From: Fibrobacter sp. UWH4
Lineage (GTDB): Bacteria > Fibrobacterota > Fibrobacteria > Fibrobacterales > Fibrobacteraceae
Assembly (NCBI RefSeq): GCF_900142475.1
Contig: NZ_FRAY01000001.1
Location: forward strand, 310,001 to 374,000
DNA: 64,000 bases
Reading direction: 5' to 3'
Below the pieces are notes generated by a model. The model was not told the origin of the DNA and made no database searches. It was given only the letters and a program-made list of their open reading frames with translations. Of the stretch, positions 5,461-36,472 are shown one piece after another. Every line of letters starts with the position of its first letter. The first letter of the stretch is position 1. The position numbers and the translations under genes were made by a program.

Positions 5461-5572
5461 GGGTTTGCTGAACCACTCACCTCAAAGGACCGAAGGTCCG
5501 CGCTTATATTTCCTAACCACCAACGGGCTAAGCCCTACTAACCACTAATCACTAACCACTAACTACTAAAAT
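5461..5572 (+). repeat. Degenerate palindrome and short-word array upstream of ettA
   Basis: GGACC-GAA-GGTCC (5488-5500) and GGGCTAAGCCC (5525-5535) form small hairpins. They are followed by an array of CTAACCACTAA-like words running into the ettA start. Similar word arrays occur upstream of der (24496-24567) and, on the opposite strand, near 51525-51560. No promoter or strong Shine-Dalgarno stands out here. Confidence 0.5.
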
Positions 5573-21416: not shown

Positions 21417-24400
21417 ATGCGTACCCCAAAACTCAATTTGTGGGATGTATGGTTTCTCTTAGTCTTGGTGTGTGTGGTGGCATGCTCGGACGATTCTTCC
21501 GGAACGAAACCGGATGTTTCCGAACCCGATGGATTTTCGTCGGATTCTCAGGTTATCATTGGCGAAGACGGCTTGCCGATTCCCGTAAGTAGTTCTGCGG
21601 CGCTTGATGATCCGTTGAATCCGCTGGCGGGAATTTCGTCATCTTCCAAGAAAAGCGATGGCTCGCACGAAGGTCCTCTTCCCGGTGAAGATCCGGGAAT
21701 GGTCGCGGTTGATACGACGGTGCCTTTTGTGGGTAACTTCCCGGTCATTTTCTCCGAAGTTTCGCCGTCGAATGCAAATTTCAAGGATAACGATGGCAAT
21801 GACCCCGGCTGGCTTGAACTTTATAATACGAGCGATGCTCCGGTGAGCCTCAATGGTGTTGCCTTGAGTAATGACCCCAAGTTCCCGCGTCGTTGGGTCT
21901 TTGGCAATGCGACTATTCCTGCCAAGAGCCACATGATTGTGTTCCTTTCGGGCAAGAACTATGCCGACTATATTCCGCCTTCGGATTCGGTCAATATGAT
22001 CGGTTCCGATTGCAGTTCGGAATCTTCTGCGGGCGGGTTCGGCGCGTTCCCTGGCATGGGTGACTGGGGCGGCGGTATGGGGGATTTCGGTGGCGGATTC
22101 CCCGGTGGTGGCGCAGGTGCTGGTGTCGGTGGCGCCGCTGCTACAGGTAACTCCGGAAATGTCGAAAATCTTCCGGGAAAATCCTCGTTGTGCTTTAACG
22201 AAGGTGGCGTGAACCAAGTGGGAGCCGTCATGAAGGTGCCGCAGGGTGGTTCCTATTCTCGTGTGGTTGTGAATTCCGGTGCGGCAAAGCTCGGCAATGC
22301 AGACCAGCTCGTGATTCGAGGATTTATTACCAAAACGCACAAAATTCGCGTAAACTTTAAGGAGGGAAACGATATTAGTGCGTGGACCGGCAAGAATCTT
22401 CGTGGCTCGGGTGATACGAATTCGGTGTATTATGTGCGCCTTGGCGACAACGCCTCCGATATCAAACGTGGCAATGTCTCGGCAACGACGTTTGCTACCG
22501 AAACCCAGGGCTCTGAATCAACGACCATCAAGATTACATCGTACATAGCACGTAAACGTGGTCATGAACCGCATACGACCTTTAAGGCCGAGGATCAGGG
22601 TGGTGTTCTTTACCTCGTGAGTGAAACGGGAGTGCTTGATTCCGTGCGCTATTCTGCGGTGCCTACGGGTGCATCCTGGTCCCGCGATGCCGCGGGTAAG
22701 TGGGGCTTTGCCTCTCCTTCGCCTTATGGAAATACGGTGGGTGAGGTTTTTGCGGTACAGGCTCAAACTAACGAAGTGAATATTCCGGCATCCGGTTTCT
22801 ATTCTTCTGCGATAACGGTCTCTTTCCCGGCGGGAACCCGCTGCGAACAGGGCGGAACGGAACCGACGGCGAATTTGCCTACGGTGGAACAGACTTTGAC
22901 GATTAATGCGACTGCGGTGTTGCGCTGCCGTGCTTATGTTGCGGGGTCTTACCCGAGCGAAGAAATTGTACGGACCTACGTGTTCGAAAGACAGCCTTCG
23001 ATTGCAACTTTATTTGTAACGACGGATCCTTTGTCGATGTTCAGCCCCGATACGGGCCTTTACATGACGGGTAATGGGGCCGCCATGATGGACCCCAAAA
23101 AGGGCGCGAACTTCTGGAGTAACCGCGAACTTCCCGTGTATGTAGAGCTATTTGAACCGAATAAACCGCAGGCTCCTGCGTTCGGCGTGATGGGCGATTA
23201 CAAAATTTCGGGGCAGTACAGTCGCGCCAAAGAAAAGAAATCTTTCTCGATTACCTTGCGCGAAGAATACGGCGATAAACGCCTCAAGTACCCGTTGTTC
23301 CCGGATTATCCGGAACTTAAGAAATTCAAGGCGTTCTCGCTTAGGAATTTCGGAAACAACAGTGGAGACGACTATGTGCGCGACCGCATCGGAACTTCGA
23401 TGACAGAAGGGCTTGACGTCGATTACCAGCGCGGGCGTTACGTTGTTGTGTATTACAATGGCAAGTATTACGGTGTACACGATTTACGTGAACGCAACAA
23501 CGAGTACTATTACGAAACCAAGTATGGCCTTGACGCATCGGATATCGACTTGATTGATGCCCAAAATGAAGCGGGTGCGGGCTCGGCGACCGATTACAAG
23601 GCGATGATTGATTGGCTCCAGAGTAATGAACTGACGAACGATGCAAACTATCAGAAGATTGCCGACCAGATTGATGTCGATAACTACATAAACTATATGC
23701 AGGCCGAAATGTTCGTGAACAATGGCGACTGGCCGCACAACAATATGAAAAAATGGCGTGTCGCAAGTCAGAAGAGTAAATGGAAATGGTTCCTGTACGA
23801 TGTAGACTTTGGCTTCGGCGCTGGTTACAATACGCAGAATGGCAACGTGTTCAGCTACGTGACCAATCCGAACGGTACAAACGGCATGGGAATGATGCCT
23901 GGTATGGGTGGCGGTCAGCAGAGTAGCGGCTCTATTTCGGAGCATACGATTCTCATGATCCGTTTGCTCGGTAACGAAGGATTCAAGAAGGCTTTCATTA
24001 ATCGCTTCTGCGTACTCTTGTCTATGAACTTCTCTGCCGACAGGCTCGTGAAACGTATTGACGAATTGCAATCGCAGGTGCAAGCCGAAGTGGCGCGTGA
24101 TGCGGAATTCTGGAACTACGACGCCGCATCGATGTCGAGTAATCTTGAAAAGATCAAGTCCTTTGCGCAGACCCGCCAGCAGACCATTATGAGCGAAATG
24201 CAGCAGTACTTTAGCTTGAGAGAAACTGCTTCGGTAACTCTTTCGGCGCAGGGCTCGGGCAAGGTCCTGGTGCATAACCTGCCGCTCGATCAAAGTTCTA
24301 TGTCGGTGAACTTCTTTAGAGATGTCCCGGTAACCGTAACCGCGATGCCCAATGCGGGTGCCGTATTCGGTGGCTGGAGCGATGGCGTCCAAGAAGCAAC

Positions 24401-24452
24401 TCGAACCTTTAATCCCGGCGAAGTAGCAACAGTCACTGCAACATTTAAGTAA
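21417..24452 (+). CDS. CotH kinase-fold lipoprotein with lamin-tail and InlB-repeat-like domains
   Basis: 1011 aa lipoprotein; the lipobox VVAC puts the lipidated Cys near residue 22. Order of parts: short Ser-rich spacer; lamin-tail domain (about 105-185: VIFSEVSPSNANFKDNDGNDP, WLELYNTS); Gly-rich segment (about 200-245); a chitobiase-C-like sandwich (about 450-525); CotH domain (about 565-850) with SFSITLREEYGDKRLKYPLF, FSLRNFGNN, YYGVHDLRERNN and WKWFLYDVDFGFG; and a C-terminal GGWSDGVQEATRTFNPG module like a divergent InlB B-repeat. CotH of Bacillus is a kinase-fold protein that phosphorylates spore-coat proteins; by analogy this may modify a surface component. No strong ribosome site precedes the ATG. 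Confidence 0.85.
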   Translation: MRTPKLNLWDVWFLLVLVCVVACSDDSSGTKPDVSEPDGFSSDSQVIIGEDGLPIPVSSSAALDDPLNPLAGISSSSKKSDGSHEGPLPGEDPGMVAVDTTVPFVGNFPVIFSEVSPSNANFKDNDGNDPGWLELYNTSDAPVSLNGVALSNDPKFPRRWVFGNATIPAKSHMIVFLSGKNYADYIPPSDSVNMIGSDCSSESSAGGFGAFPGMGDWGGGMGDFGGGFPGGGAGAGVGGAAATGNSGNVENLPGKSSLCFNEGGVNQVGAVMKVPQGGSYSRVVVNSGAAKLGNADQLVIRGFITKTHKIRVNFKEGNDISAWTGKNLRGSGDTNSVYYVRLGDNASDIKRGNVSATTFATETQGSESTTIKITSYIARKRGHEPHTTFKAEDQGGVLYLVSETGVLDSVRYSAVPTGASWSRDAAGKWGFASPSPYGNTVGEVFAVQAQTNEVNIPASGFYSSAITVSFPAGTRCEQGGTEPTANLPTVEQTLTINATAVLRCRAYVAGSYPSEEIVRTYVFERQPSIATLFVTTDPLSMFSPDTGLYMTGNGAAMMDPKKGANFWSNRELPVYVELFEPNKPQAPAFGVMGDYKISGQYSRAKEKKSFSITLREEYGDKRLKYPLFPDYPELKKFKAFSLRNFGNNSGDDYVRDRIGTSMTEGLDVDYQRGRYVVVYYNGKYYGVHDLRERNNEYYYETKYGLDASDIDLIDAQNEAGAGSATDYKAMIDWLQSNELTNDANYQKIADQIDVDNYINYMQAEMFVNNGDWPHNNMKKWRVASQKSKWKWFLYDVDFGFGAGYNTQNGNVFSYVTNPNGTNGMGMMPGMGGGQQSSGSISEHTILMIRLLGNEGFKKAFINRFCVLLSMNFSADRLVKRIDELQSQVQAEVARDAEFWNYDAASMSSNLEKIKSFAQTRQQTIMSEMQQYFSLRETASVTLSAQGSGKVLVHNLPLDQSSMSVNFFRDVPVTVTAMPNAGAVFGGWSDGVQEATRTFNPGEVATVTATFK

Positions 24453-24474
24453 GAAATCATACCAATCGCTTCTG

Positions 24475-24503
24475 GAGCCCGCCAATGGCGGGCTTTCTTC
24501 TAA
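24475..24503 (+). terminator. Intrinsic terminator of the CotH gene
   Basis: AGCCCGCC (24476-24483), loop AAT, GGCGGGCT (24487-24494), then TTCTTCT. Confidence 0.85.
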
Positions 24504-24567
24504 CATCCCACTTCCTACTTCCTACTTCCCACTTCCCACATCCCACTATTTACTACATTTTAGTACA
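24504..24567 (+). repeat. Pyrimidine word array upstream of der
   Basis: Degenerate tandem copies of CCCACTTCCTACTT-like words fill the space between the CotH terminator and der. It resembles the CTAACCACTAA array upstream of ettA. Confidence 0.5.
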
Positions 24568-26010
24568 ATGAAATTACCTGTCGTATGTATAGTAGGGCGC
24601 CCGAACGTGGGCAAGTCCTCGCTCTTCAACCGCATCTTGGGGCGCCGTGCCGCAGTCGTGTCTGACCGCGATGGTGTGACCCGCGATCGCCATTACCAGA
24701 ATGCGAATTACAAGGGCCATGAATTTACGGTGGTCGATACCGGCGGATTCTTGCCGGACGATTCCATCGATGTGCTCGCCGATAGCGTGCGCACCCAGAT
24801 TTTTAACGCCGTCGAAGAGGCCGACTTGGTGCTCTTCATGGTCGATGTCCGCGTGGGCATAACCAAGCTCGACGAACAGTTTGCGCGCATGGTCCGCAAA
24901 CTCGACAAGAAGGTGATTCTTGTCGCAAACAAGAGCGAAAACGGTGCCGACCGTCAAGAAAGCTACGAATTCCTGAAGCTTGGCTTTGGACTTCCGCGTA
25001 CCATCAGTGCGCTCACGGGCTATGCCTGTCTTTCGCTCATGGACGAAGTCATTGCGGTGCTTCCGACTCCCGTTCGCGGTGAACGCAAGGAAGTTCGCCC
25101 GATTCGCTTTGCCATTCTCGGTCGCCCGAACGCCGGCAAGAGCACGCTCTTGAACCGCTTGCTGAACGAAGACCGCGCCGTGGTGTCCGATATTCCGGGA
25201 ACGACTCGCGATTCCATTGACTGCGACTTTGCTGTCGACGGAGTCAAGTTCGTGGTGACCGATACGGCGGGCCTCCGCAAGAAGGCGAAGGTCGAAGACG
25301 AAGTCGAAATTTTCAGCAACATGCGTACGCTCGAAAGCATTCGCCGCTCCGACGTGTCTGTCTTGATGGTTGACTGCACCCGCGGTCTCGAAGTCCAGGA
25401 CTTCCGCATCATTACCGAAATCCGCAAGGCGGGTAAGGGCTTGGTGCTCGTGCTCAACAAGTGGGACATTTTCCCGGACAAGACCGAAAAGTCCTTTGAC
25501 CACATGGTCAAGGAAATGCTCGAACGCGAGCCGATGCTTGAATACGTGCCGATTATTTCGGCGAGCGCCAAGGAAGGCCAGCGCGTGAACCGCATTGTAC
25601 AGGCCATTCAGACGGTGTATGCCAACTGCCGCCGTGTGCTTGGCCGCGACCGTGTTGCAACCGCCTTTGCTAGCTTCTTGGAAAAGAATCCGGTGCCTAG
25701 CCAGAACGCCCGCGTGGTGCAGCTTACTCGCGCCTGCCAGATTATGGTGGAGCCTCCCGTGATTGCTATCGAAACCCGCACGCCGGAACTGGTGGCCGAT
25801 TCTTACAAACGTTACTTGCTCAAACAGTTTTACGAAGAATTCCAGCTGCAGGGCGCACCCCTCCGCCTGAACTTCGACCAGAAATTAACCCTTAGAAAGG
25901 ATGAAGATCTTGAACAGTTTACTGAGTCTTCCAATAGCGTACTTGCTGGGGTCAATCCCGAGCGCGATCTGGATCGCAAAAATCGCAAGGGGAAAGTCGT
26001 TCGACATTAG
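24568..26010 (+). CDS. der: Ribosome biogenesis GTPase Der (EngA)
   Basis: 480 aa with two GTPase domains and a KH-like C-terminal domain. Domain 1: GRPNVGKSSLFNR (G1, about 10-22), DRDGVTRDR, DTGG; domain 2: GRPNAGKSTLLNR, DIPGTTRDS, DTAG, NKWD. Der is needed for 50S subunit assembly. In domain 1 the G4 motif reads NKSE where NKxD is usual, a change in the base-specificity position. The C-terminus runs about 30 residues past the usual KH-domain end, and this tail (from about residue 445) is encoded by DNA that also encodes the first 36 codons of plsY in another frame. Confidence 0.94.
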   Translation: MKLPVVCIVGRPNVGKSSLFNRILGRRAAVVSDRDGVTRDRHYQNANYKGHEFTVVDTGGFLPDDSIDVLADSVRTQIFNAVEEADLVLFMVDVRVGITKLDEQFARMVRKLDKKVILVANKSENGADRQESYEFLKLGFGLPRTISALTGYACLSLMDEVIAVLPTPVRGERKEVRPIRFAILGRPNAGKSTLLNRLLNEDRAVVSDIPGTTRDSIDCDFAVDGVKFVVTDTAGLRKKAKVEDEVEIFSNMRTLESIRRSDVSVLMVDCTRGLEVQDFRIITEIRKAGKGLVLVLNKWDIFPDKTEKSFDHMVKEMLEREPMLEYVPIISASAKEGQRVNRIVQAIQTVYANCRRVLGRDRVATAFASFLEKNPVPSQNARVVQLTRACQIMVEPPVIAIETRTPELVADSYKRYLLKQFYEEFQLQGAPLRLNFDQKLTLRKDEDLEQFTESSNSVLAGVNPERDLDRKNRKGKVVRH

Positions 26011-26569
26011 AGATTACGGCTCCAAGAATGCGGGCCTCACCAACACGTTCCGCGTACTCGGTTGGAAACCTGCGCTTCCCGTTGTTTTCCTGGATTTGCT
26101 CAAGGGCTTCTTCGGTCCGTGGATTGCCATTAAGTTGTGCGAAGCCCAGGTGGCTGCCGGTGGTGCGGACTACTCACATTGGGTACCGCTTGTCGCTGGC
26201 CTCTTGGTGATCTTGGGACACAGCTTTACTTGCTTTGCCGGTTTCCGCGGCGGTAAGGGCGTGCTCGCCGCTTTGGGTGTGTTCCTTGCTCTTTGCCCGA
26301 TTACGGCACTTGCAAGCTTTGGCGTGTGGATTATCCTTACGGTGGCGACAAAGTATGTGTCGGTCGGAAGCATCGGGGCATGCATCGCCCTTGCGGCTTT
26401 TTCGACGATGGGCTACTTTCAGCTGCCGTTCCCGCCCGAAAAATTCAACGAGGGCTTATGGATTACATGCCTGCTGGTGGCCATTTTCGTGATCGTGAAG
26501 CATAAATCCAACATTAAGCGCCTGATAAACGGCACTGAAAACGGTTTTGGCAGCAAACGCAAGAAATAA
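25901..26569 (+). CDS. plsY: Glycerol-3-phosphate acyltransferase PlsY
   Basis: 222 aa inner-membrane protein with about five hydrophobic helices. It transfers the acyl group from acyl-phosphate to glycerol-3-phosphate, the first step of phospholipid synthesis. Motif 1 is LLGSIPSA (about 15-22), then DIRDYGSKNAGLTNTFR, motif 2 GHSFTCFAGFRGGKG and a C-terminal Lys-rich end. The start overlaps der by 110 bases; it cannot be moved past the overlap because motif 1 lies within it. GAAAGG touches the ATG directly, so TTG at 25910, nine bases from the GG, is a possible alternative. gpsA, which makes its substrate, lies just downstream. Confidence 0.92.
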   Translation: MKILNSLLSLPIAYLLGSIPSAIWIAKIARGKSFDIRDYGSKNAGLTNTFRVLGWKPALPVVFLDLLKGFFGPWIAIKLCEAQVAAGGADYSHWVPLVAGLLVILGHSFTCFAGFRGGKGVLAALGVFLALCPITALASFGVWIILTVATKYVSVGSIGACIALAAFSTMGYFQLPFPPEKFNEGLWITCLLVAIFVIVKHKSNIKRLINGTENGFGSKRKK

Positions 26570-26650
26570 TTCGGAATTCAGAGTCCGGAATTCGGAGTTA
26601 AAATGTTTCTGAATTCTGAAATTCGAATTCTGAATTTCTATAATCTAAAT
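26570..26650 (+). repeat. GAATTC-type word repeats and possible promoter upstream of gpsA
   Basis: Degenerate copies of TTCGGAATTCAGA-like words, several palindromic around GAATTC, fill this gap; the same words occur at 5431-5461. CTGAAA (26616-26621), 17 bases, TATAAT (26639-26644) could be the gpsA promoter. Confidence 0.45.
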
Positions 26651-26673: not shown

Positions 26674-27705
26674 ATGAAGGTTACAGTTTTAGGTACGGGT
26701 GGTTGGGGACTTTCTCTTGGCCAGGTGGTGTATGAGAACAAGAATGAAGTGATGTTCTGGACAAATTCCCAGGCCGAAGTGGACCTGCTTTCGACAGAAC
26801 ACCAGTACAAGGACAAACTTCCGGGTGTGATTTTCCCGGCCGACTTTAAGTACATGACCGACATGAACGCCGCCCTCGAAGGGTGCGAAATGGTTCTGAT
26901 TGTAGTGCCTTCCCAGTTCATGGGCGGTGTCGCCAAGAACCTTGGCAAGTGGACTCCCGCCAAGGGTAAGGAACCGGTGGTGGTTTGCGCTACGAAGGGT
27001 ATTCTCGAAGGCACGAACCAGCTCATGAGCGAAGTGCTGCTCGAAAACGTTCCTTGGCTCACCGAAGACAAGATGGTCGCCTTTAGCGGTCCGTCGCATG
27101 CCGAAGAGGTTAGCCGCCATATCCTTACGGCCATTGTGGCAGCCTGCGTGAACGAAGAATCCGCAAAGCTTGTCCAGAAGGTTATGAGTTGCTCGTACCT
27201 GCGTGTCTACAGTTCTACGGATATCGTGGGTATTGAACTCTGCGGTTCCGTGAAGAACGTGATTGCCATTGCTTCTGGAGTACTCTATGGACTCGAAGCC
27301 AGTGGCAAGTACAAGATTGGCGATAATACTCGAGCTGCCCTCTTGACCCGCGGCCAGGCTGAAATGTGCCGCCTGGGTAAGGCGCTTGGTGCAAAGCCTG
27401 AAACATTCGCGGGCCTCGCCGGTATGGGCGACCTTATCGTGACATGCCTTTCGCAGCATAGCCGTAACCGCTACGTGGGTGAACACATCGGTCGTGGCGA
27501 AACCATCGAACAGGTGCTTGCTGGCATGAAGATGGTGGCCGAAGGCGTTCCTACGTGCAAGAGCACCAAGGCGCTTGCCGACAAGCTCGGTGTCGAAATG
27601 CCTATCGTGGATGCCGTCCATGCCCTCCTCTTTGAAGGCAAGAAGATCGACGATGTCATTCAGGATATGTGGGGCCGTGAGCTCAAGGAAGAAGTCTGGG
27701 AGTAG
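26674..27705 (+). CDS. gpsA: Glycerol-3-phosphate dehydrogenase [NAD(P)+]
   Basis: 343 aa. N-terminal Rossmann motif VLGTGGWGLSLG (about 5-16; the family consensus is GxGxxG with A often in the fourth position), MVLIVVPSQ, the substrate-binding KGIL, GPSHAEEVSR, and the conserved CGSVKNVIAIASGVLYGL with its catalytic Lys, followed by GLAGMGDLIVTC and SRNRYVGE. It reduces dihydroxyacetone phosphate to sn-glycerol-3-phosphate, the substrate of PlsY encoded 105 bases upstream. Start chosen at the conserved MKVTVLG. Confidence 0.95.
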   Translation: MKVTVLGTGGWGLSLGQVVYENKNEVMFWTNSQAEVDLLSTEHQYKDKLPGVIFPADFKYMTDMNAALEGCEMVLIVVPSQFMGGVAKNLGKWTPAKGKEPVVVCATKGILEGTNQLMSEVLLENVPWLTEDKMVAFSGPSHAEEVSRHILTAIVAACVNEESAKLVQKVMSCSYLRVYSSTDIVGIELCGSVKNVIAIASGVLYGLEASGKYKIGDNTRAALLTRGQAEMCRLGKALGAKPETFAGLAGMGDLIVTCLSQHSRNRYVGEHIGRGETIEQVLAGMKMVAEGVPTCKSTKALADKLGVEMPIVDAVHALLFEGKKIDDVIQDMWGRELKEEVWE

Positions 27706-27741
27706 TGTAGAGCTTAGCGCTCAGAGCTTAGTGCTTAGAAC

Positions 27742-27790
27742 TTAGAGTTTAGAGTTTAGAGTTTAGAGTTTAGAGTTTAGAGTTTAGAGT
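27742..27790 (+). repeat. Seven perfect tandem copies of TTAGAGT
   Basis: The 7-mer TTAGAGT is repeated seven times without error. Degenerate relatives (AGAGCTTAG, AGTGCTTAG) precede it from 27706. It lies between gpsA and the convergent barrel gene. Confidence 0.95.
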
Positions 27791-36339: not shown

Positions 36340-36472
36340 TGTCATTCCCGCGAAAGCGGAAATCCCTACTTATAGAAAAGACCAGAACAGTAGTTCTAGT
36401 CATGCTTCTCTGTCATTCCCGCGAAAGCGGGAATCTCTACTTATGAAAAAAGACTAGAACAAAGTTCTAGTC
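36340..36472 (+). repeat. Tandem duplication of a 62-bp palindromic unit
   Basis: Units at 36340-36401 and 36411-36472 differ at only about eight positions. Each holds TTCCCGCGAAAGCGG (small hairpin) and a second hairpin of GACTAGAAC/GTTCTAGTC type. The second unit's hairpin serves as the terminator beside tRNA-Ala. Confidence 0.9.

Follow-up and report, generated by a model that had tools for sequence, protein, structure and literature searches.

The der and plsY genes of Fibrobacter sp. UWH4 very probably form an old and genuine same-strand overlap, in which 101 nucleotides (nt) are read out of frame by both genes. The pair lies in a window of 64,000 nt (positions 310,001 to 374,000 of contig NZ_FRAY01000001.1, assembly GCF_900142475.1), the whole stretch of DNA analyzed here, and coordinates are counted from its first base. 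On its + strand, der, coding for the ribosome biogenesis GTPase Der/EngA, runs from 24568 to 26010 (480 amino acids, TAG stop codon at 26008-26010), and plsY, coding for the glycerol-3-phosphate acyltransferase PlsY, runs from a TTG start codon at 25910 to 26569 (219 amino acids). Both genes are of kinds that are usually essential in bacteria. The codons of plsY begin at the second codon position of der (an offset of +1), and both reading frames are open throughout the overlap (25910-26010). As the initial annotation had noticed, der extends past its usual end through plsY DNA, in which the last 29 residues of Der (452-480, positions 25921-26007) are written in another frame.

Profile searches place both products in their families. 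Der scores 499.7 bits against TIGR03594 (cut-off 306.7) over residues 4-436 and contains two MMR_HSR1 stretches and a KH_dom-like domain (PF14714, residues 365-436), that is, the two GTPase domains and the KH-like C-terminal domain of Der/EngA, with homologues in relatives. PlsY scores 158 bits against TIGR00023 (cut-off 137.2) and 167.7 bits against PF02660.

Conservation of the overlap

Searches for der in 61 genomes from the genus and in 167 from the phylum, two sets that partly coincide, gathered 124 der loci. Within the family 105 loci were fetched, 12 of which (L080-L090 and L097, from two genera here termed g2 and g4) have no plsY adjoining der; among the 93 kept, L040 and L116 end at a contig edge before the stop codon of der, leaving 91 measurable loci. 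An overlap with the same frame relation is present in all 93. Counted from the TTG codon, it measures 86 nt in 45 of the measurable loci, 101 nt in 27, 95 nt in eight, 98 nt in three, 137 and 89 nt in two each, and 92, 104, 152 and 209 nt in one each, a range of 86-209 nt that narrows to 86-152 nt for 90 of the 91. The comparison of der stop codons across relatives, which the initial annotation had proposed, thus places that codon at least 86 nt beyond the plsY TTG in every measurable locus. Apart from this moving stop codon, Der and PlsY are similar in length to their orthologues within the family.

The same annotation had suggested that a sequencing error might have removed a stop codon near 25900. 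An error of sequencing or assembly, or a recent loss of the stop codon in this genome, could draw on a survey of 338 genomes that, in its available text, judges none of 715 annotated same-strand overlaps longer than 60 base pairs (bp) to be real (Palleja et al., PMC2478687), but it is refuted by conservation: the frame relation is the same in all 93 loci, and the isolate Fibrobacter intestinalis ATCC 43854 (L189) shows an overlap of 86 nt. We grant this alternative next to no probability. A +1 frameshift producing a Der-PlsY fusion would agree with the +1 offset of the two frames; yet in 83 of the 93 loci the plsY frame has a stop codon 24 nt before the TTG, leaving a very short stretch in which to shift, and no slippery site is evident by eye, no dedicated search for one having been made. 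Such a fusion seems extremely unlikely.

In a tree of Der proteins (69 of 123 rows, the genus having been thinned by locus number), the overlap maps to the base of the family and is lacking in g2 and g4, where plsY is located away from der; two changes are required, which would most simply be one gain and one loss in g2/g4. Within the genus, the stop codon of der has shifted at least six times. Two irregularities were seen in the collection: in locus L057 (G053, C29) der is split across two frames, reflecting a frameshift or an assembly error in a metagenome-assembled genome (MAG), and four genomes of the genus (G019, G035, G038 and G040) show no full-length der match despite a completeness of 81-93%.

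The start site of plsY

The overlap had initially been put at 110 nt, with plsY beginning at the ATG codon at 25901-25903 (open reading frame 25901-26569). The overlap itself is real, but this length most likely is not, for the start of plsY appears to be the TTG at 25910. All 93 loci have TTG at 25910; at 25901, 66 have ATG and the other 27 ACG. The putative Shine-Dalgarno sequence AAAGGA (25896-25901) stands 8 nt ahead of the TTG in every locus. The 16S ribosomal RNA gene of this genome ends in ...GGATTACCTCCTTTA (L141), and AAAGGA matches its end, ACCTCCTTTA; the pattern first used to find that end had no match, the genome reading GGATTACC at that place. In g2 and g4, all 13 detached plsY genes carry ATG (12) or GTG (1) where their sequence aligns with the TTG, and three of them have an additional TTG or GTG farther upstream in frame. 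On these grounds the overlap comprises positions 25910-26010, that is, 101 nt, nine fewer than first proposed. A start at the ATG of 25901 would use a stronger codon, present in 66 of the 93 loci; however, the 27 ACG loci have no other in-frame upstream ATG, GTG or TTG before a stop codon, AAAGGA overlaps that ATG, and all 13 detached copies start at the TTG-aligned residue, which makes the longer version very improbable.

Placing the start at the TTG does not abolish the overlap, nor can any shift of the start do so: the PlsY motif GSIPSA (25949-25966) lies inside it, as the initial annotation had correctly pointed out, and the TTG is invariant. The codons that write AAAGGA and the start appear to suit both Der coding and plsY initiation. 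Among 89 loci (the 93 minus L034, L040, L114 and L116, in which plsY is cut or at most 200 amino acids long; the same set serves the constraint and pairwise measures below), the arginine codon is AGA in 86 and CGA in three, against a background use of 2.9% and 3.8% of arginine codons; lysine is AAG and leucine CTT in all 89, the background values being 74.4% and 24.6%. No promoter within der emerged from a consensus scan of the + strand from 24400 to 26000.

Origin of the overlap

The Der motif LRKDEDLEQF (25891-25920) contains the ribosome-binding site, the start codon and the first codons of plsY. It is invariant, save one D/E position, in 16 aligned Der rows, which is at odds with the initial description of the Der tail as non-conserved. 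The form LRxDE[DE]L occurs in 13 of the 15 relatives from the order and class that were read, none of which shows the long overlap (two of them, L117 and L123, showed no plsY next to der); the two loci of the sister family f2 read LRKDDEF, and all 12 Der proteins of g2 and g4 keep LR[ST]D[DE]DL. Der proteins of this class carry a C-terminal motif of roughly the form LRxDE[DE]Lxx-aromatic, which the four Der proteins examined from other classes lack. Since the motif is found in relatives without the overlap, g2 and g4 included, it is older than the overlap. The lysine of LRKD, kept in all 93 overlap loci, is replaced by serine (9) or threonine (3) in g2 and g4; elsewhere the position is lysine in f2 (2/2), threonine in 12 and asparagine in one of the other relatives. 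This lysine may have preceded the overlap and then been lost with it.

Outside the family, 19 loci were fetched, and plsY adjoins der in 14 of them. In 12 of these 14 a start codon for plsY is available at -1 or -4 from the stop codon of der, giving an overlap of 1 or 4 nt; in the remaining two the genes are separated by 38 nt (L104) and 33 nt (L118). In f2 the genes share a 4-nt ATGA and PlsY begins MNIAIAL. Judging from these arrangements, the present phase 1 overlap is likely to have been preceded by a short one in phase 2 that was probably coupled (phases named after the available text of PMC2542354). The Der tails of other families differ, the distance between LR.D and the stop codon being 27 to 123 residues in the six loci measured.

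The initial annotation had proposed that plsY was overprinted through the loss of a der stop codon. The loss fits the data; the one-way overprinting does not, because the plsY ribosome-binding site and start codon lie in an older Der motif. From the sequences compared, overprinting would instead have run both ways, the plsY start having been laid over the Der motif and, from about plsY codon 4 onward, the Der tail over plsY.

Constraint on the overlapping DNA

When plsY is randomly recoded with synonymous codons, the der frame stays open at least as far as it does here in 19% of draws with the gene of this genome and, averaged over the 91 loci, in 29%. Overlap length was therefore rejected as a sign of selection; it is conservation in 93 of 93 loci, not length, that sets the overlap beyond chance. 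The lack of der stop codons before 86 nt in the 91 loci was judged weak evidence, the chance of an open frame being 0.12-0.61 per representative (n=15). In detached plsY the same frame is open to 86 nt in eight of 13 copies and stops earlier in five.

The third positions of plsY codons are the first positions of der codons, so that synonymous changes in plsY nearly always alter Der. We compared the number of synonymous events with an amino-acid-matched expectation, on a tree built from der DNA outside the overlap. The controls were the detached plsY genes (all 13 in start-codon and event counts, and the seven read on one strand in the pairwise measure) and the open reading frame that follows plsY (26674-27705, + strand), which we take to be gpsA, coding for glycerol-3-phosphate dehydrogenase (36 loci in event counts, 39 in the pairwise measure). 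In the genus (72 tips), plsY codons 2-10 show seven events against 127.7 expected (0.05), codons 11-20 show 46 against 140.6 (0.33), codons 21-28 show 28 against 79.8 (0.34 for codons 11-28 jointly) and codons 29-34 show 34 against 52.8. On the 36 tips shared with the control, the ratios for these four segments are 0.06, 0.34, 0.39 and 0.75 in plsY and 1.31, 0.83, 1.24 and 0.98 in gpsA; detached plsY (13 tips) gives 0.69, 1.03, 0.56 and 0.94, and the other genera of the family (17 tips) give 0.38, 0.89, 0.52 (three codons) and 0.92. In loci with the der stop codon at 86 nt, codons 21-28 give a ratio of 0.10 and codons 29-34 one of 0.85; with the stop codon at 101 or 104 nt, the two ratios are 0.34 and 0.26. 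The constraint on plsY thus appears to end near the stop codon of der, and the columns K29 and D32, which are not forced by this grouping, show four and six events versus one and zero.

These ratios support an overlap effect that is clear at plsY codons 2-20 in the genus and weaker at codons 21-28. Taken together, those of the genus and of the other genera support selection on the Der tail that acts near the motif throughout the family and farther out only in Fibrobacter, where the initial picture of a non-conserved tail fails for the region beyond the motif as well.

The overlap could be real and the Der tail beyond LRKDEDLEQF nonetheless be passive readthrough, the constraint stemming from the plsY start region at the RNA level. 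The length of the tail is as expected from random recoding, its end has moved repeatedly within the genus, and the frame is open for at least 71 nt in all 13 detached and 13 outgroup copies read; codons 11-20 are unconstrained in other genera, detached plsY, too, dips mildly at codons 2-10 and 21-28, and an AlphaFold model of Der gives the tail no structure (mean predicted local distance difference test score 66.4, residues 439-480 under 50), although with 16 alignment rows that model is too shallow to judge the tail. On the other side, the drop in the genus is far deeper than in detached plsY at codons 2-10 and 11-20, is absent from gpsA and lessens past the stop codon of der, and the transversions observed in der are more conservative than those that could occur (P 0.0006), which is not so for transitions (P 0.30). 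We consider a passive tail somewhat doubtful, while giving it serious weight.

Surrounding sequence

Several tandem repeats were noted in the window. Those with a 7-base unit, which occupy gaps around the operon, are TCCCACT, six times before der (24506-24547), TTCTGAA after plsY (26607-26636), AGTTTAG, 12.4 times at the end of the gene following plsY (27704-27790), and ACTAACC, 4.7 times at 5537-5569; a 71-bp unit is repeated 1.9 times at 36340-36472. The der gene is preceded by TTTACTACATTTTAGTACA (24549-24567), and most detached plsY genes (L125-L137) are closely preceded by a stretch like TTTCTACATTCCCCCC, with no evident Shine-Dalgarno sequence. Stretches of this type may be a candidate promoter element near the start codon.

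Discussion

The explanation that we favor, with considerable confidence, begins with a phylum ancestor in which der and plsY would have been neighbors with a 1- or 4-nt overlap, the usual start-stop layout for termination-reinitiation. In the family ancestor, a single rearrangement, most simply a deletion, would have taken out the stop codon of der and placed the 5' end of plsY, with its ribosome-binding site and start codon, inside the C-terminal motif of der (roughly LRxD[DE][DE]Lxx-aromatic). Since then the start of plsY would have lain within der, with AAAGGA, written by the Arg-Lys-Asp codons, positioning the ribosome on a TTG that spans the Leu-Glu codons (C TTG AA). Der would continue through the first 29-34 or so codons of plsY into a new C-terminal tail that is presumably made and useful, or at least sensitive to change. 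In the models in the available text of PMC3887535, elongation of the upstream gene at its 3' end is the more frequent source of such overlaps, and this would fit the part of der.

Because the stop codon of der lies 86-152 nt beyond the TTG in 90 of the 91 measurable relatives, internal initiation has most likely replaced reinitiation in the translation of plsY. In the window, that stop codon begins 98 nt past the first base of the TTG, and the two are not adjacent as termination-reinitiation would have them. Coupling is reported to be nearly abolished at intergenic distances of about 20 nt (PMC10666635, available text); its loss with distance, described for intergenic gaps, is here extended by analogy to overlaps.

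Several observations weigh against this reconstruction. With regard to its history, two gains of the overlap are possible in place of a gain and a loss, some outgroup loci have extra start codons downstream of the one at -1 or -4, f2 possesses the motif lysine without the overlap, so that this residue need not have arisen for the Shine-Dalgarno sequence, and in L114 (MAG G134) the der frame extends 209 nt into a plsY gene that codes for 200 amino acids, perhaps through an indel. As to initiation, RNA folding predictions for 15 loci do not make the plsY start any more accessible than the rest of der. Concerning selection, the mild drop in detached plsY suggests that part of the effect at codons 21-28 is plsY's own; a pairwise measure at codons 21-29 finds no overlap-specific effect (plsY 0.319, gpsA 0.316, detached plsY 0.290); grouping by stop position itself fixes codons G28, F31, I33 and R34; and the 17 tips from other genera show no constraint at codons 11-20.

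The invariance of the TTG, where ATG would alter the leucine of Der, together with the use of ATG (12) or GTG (1) by detached plsY, suggests an adaptive conflict over the plsY start codon. More speculatively, Der may have gained a useful peptide from plsY and plsY a start from Der, the two being locked together through the history of the family, with der translation tuning plsY initiation. If so, a ribosome-assembly gene and a phospholipid-synthesis gene would be tied together across a bacterial family. The history of the overlap is readable, from a short ancestral overlap through what is most simply one gain, a loss in g2/g4 and shifting stop codons, and its natural variants make it possible to test what dual coding costs and what use it has. 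For annotators it carries a caution, in that overlapping genes of this sort should not be trimmed.

We found no report of a der/plsY overlap in the open-licence literature, and none there pairing 'Fibrobacter succinogenes' with 'plsY', as far as the available texts go. The der/plsY pair would be a strong counterexample to the survey that, in its available text, accepts no same-strand overlap above 60 bp (PMC2478687). The longest real one named there, holD-rimI of Enterobacteria, likewise joins two real genes in a terminal same-strand overlap that is conserved, but spans only 32-56 bp, compared with 101 nt here and 86-152 nt in nearly all measurable relatives. The rnpA-rpmH overlap of Thermus (Feltens et al. 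2003, as cited in the available text of PMC9841429) is also long, on one strand and formed by two genes of core function; there, however, rpmH lies nested within rnpA and shares a single initiation site with it, whereas the der/plsY overlap is terminal and plsY has its own Shine-Dalgarno sequence inside der. The ATGA and TAATG start-stop overlaps, for which termination-reinitiation is described (PMC10666635, available text), resemble the likely ancestral state of der/plsY in the phylum and differ from the present one, in which the stop codon of der lies far downstream of the plsY start and phase 2 (1 or 4 nt) has given way to phase 1 (101 nt). The der/plsY overlap is thus of a known kind, and is notable for its length, the depth of its conservation and its traceable origin.
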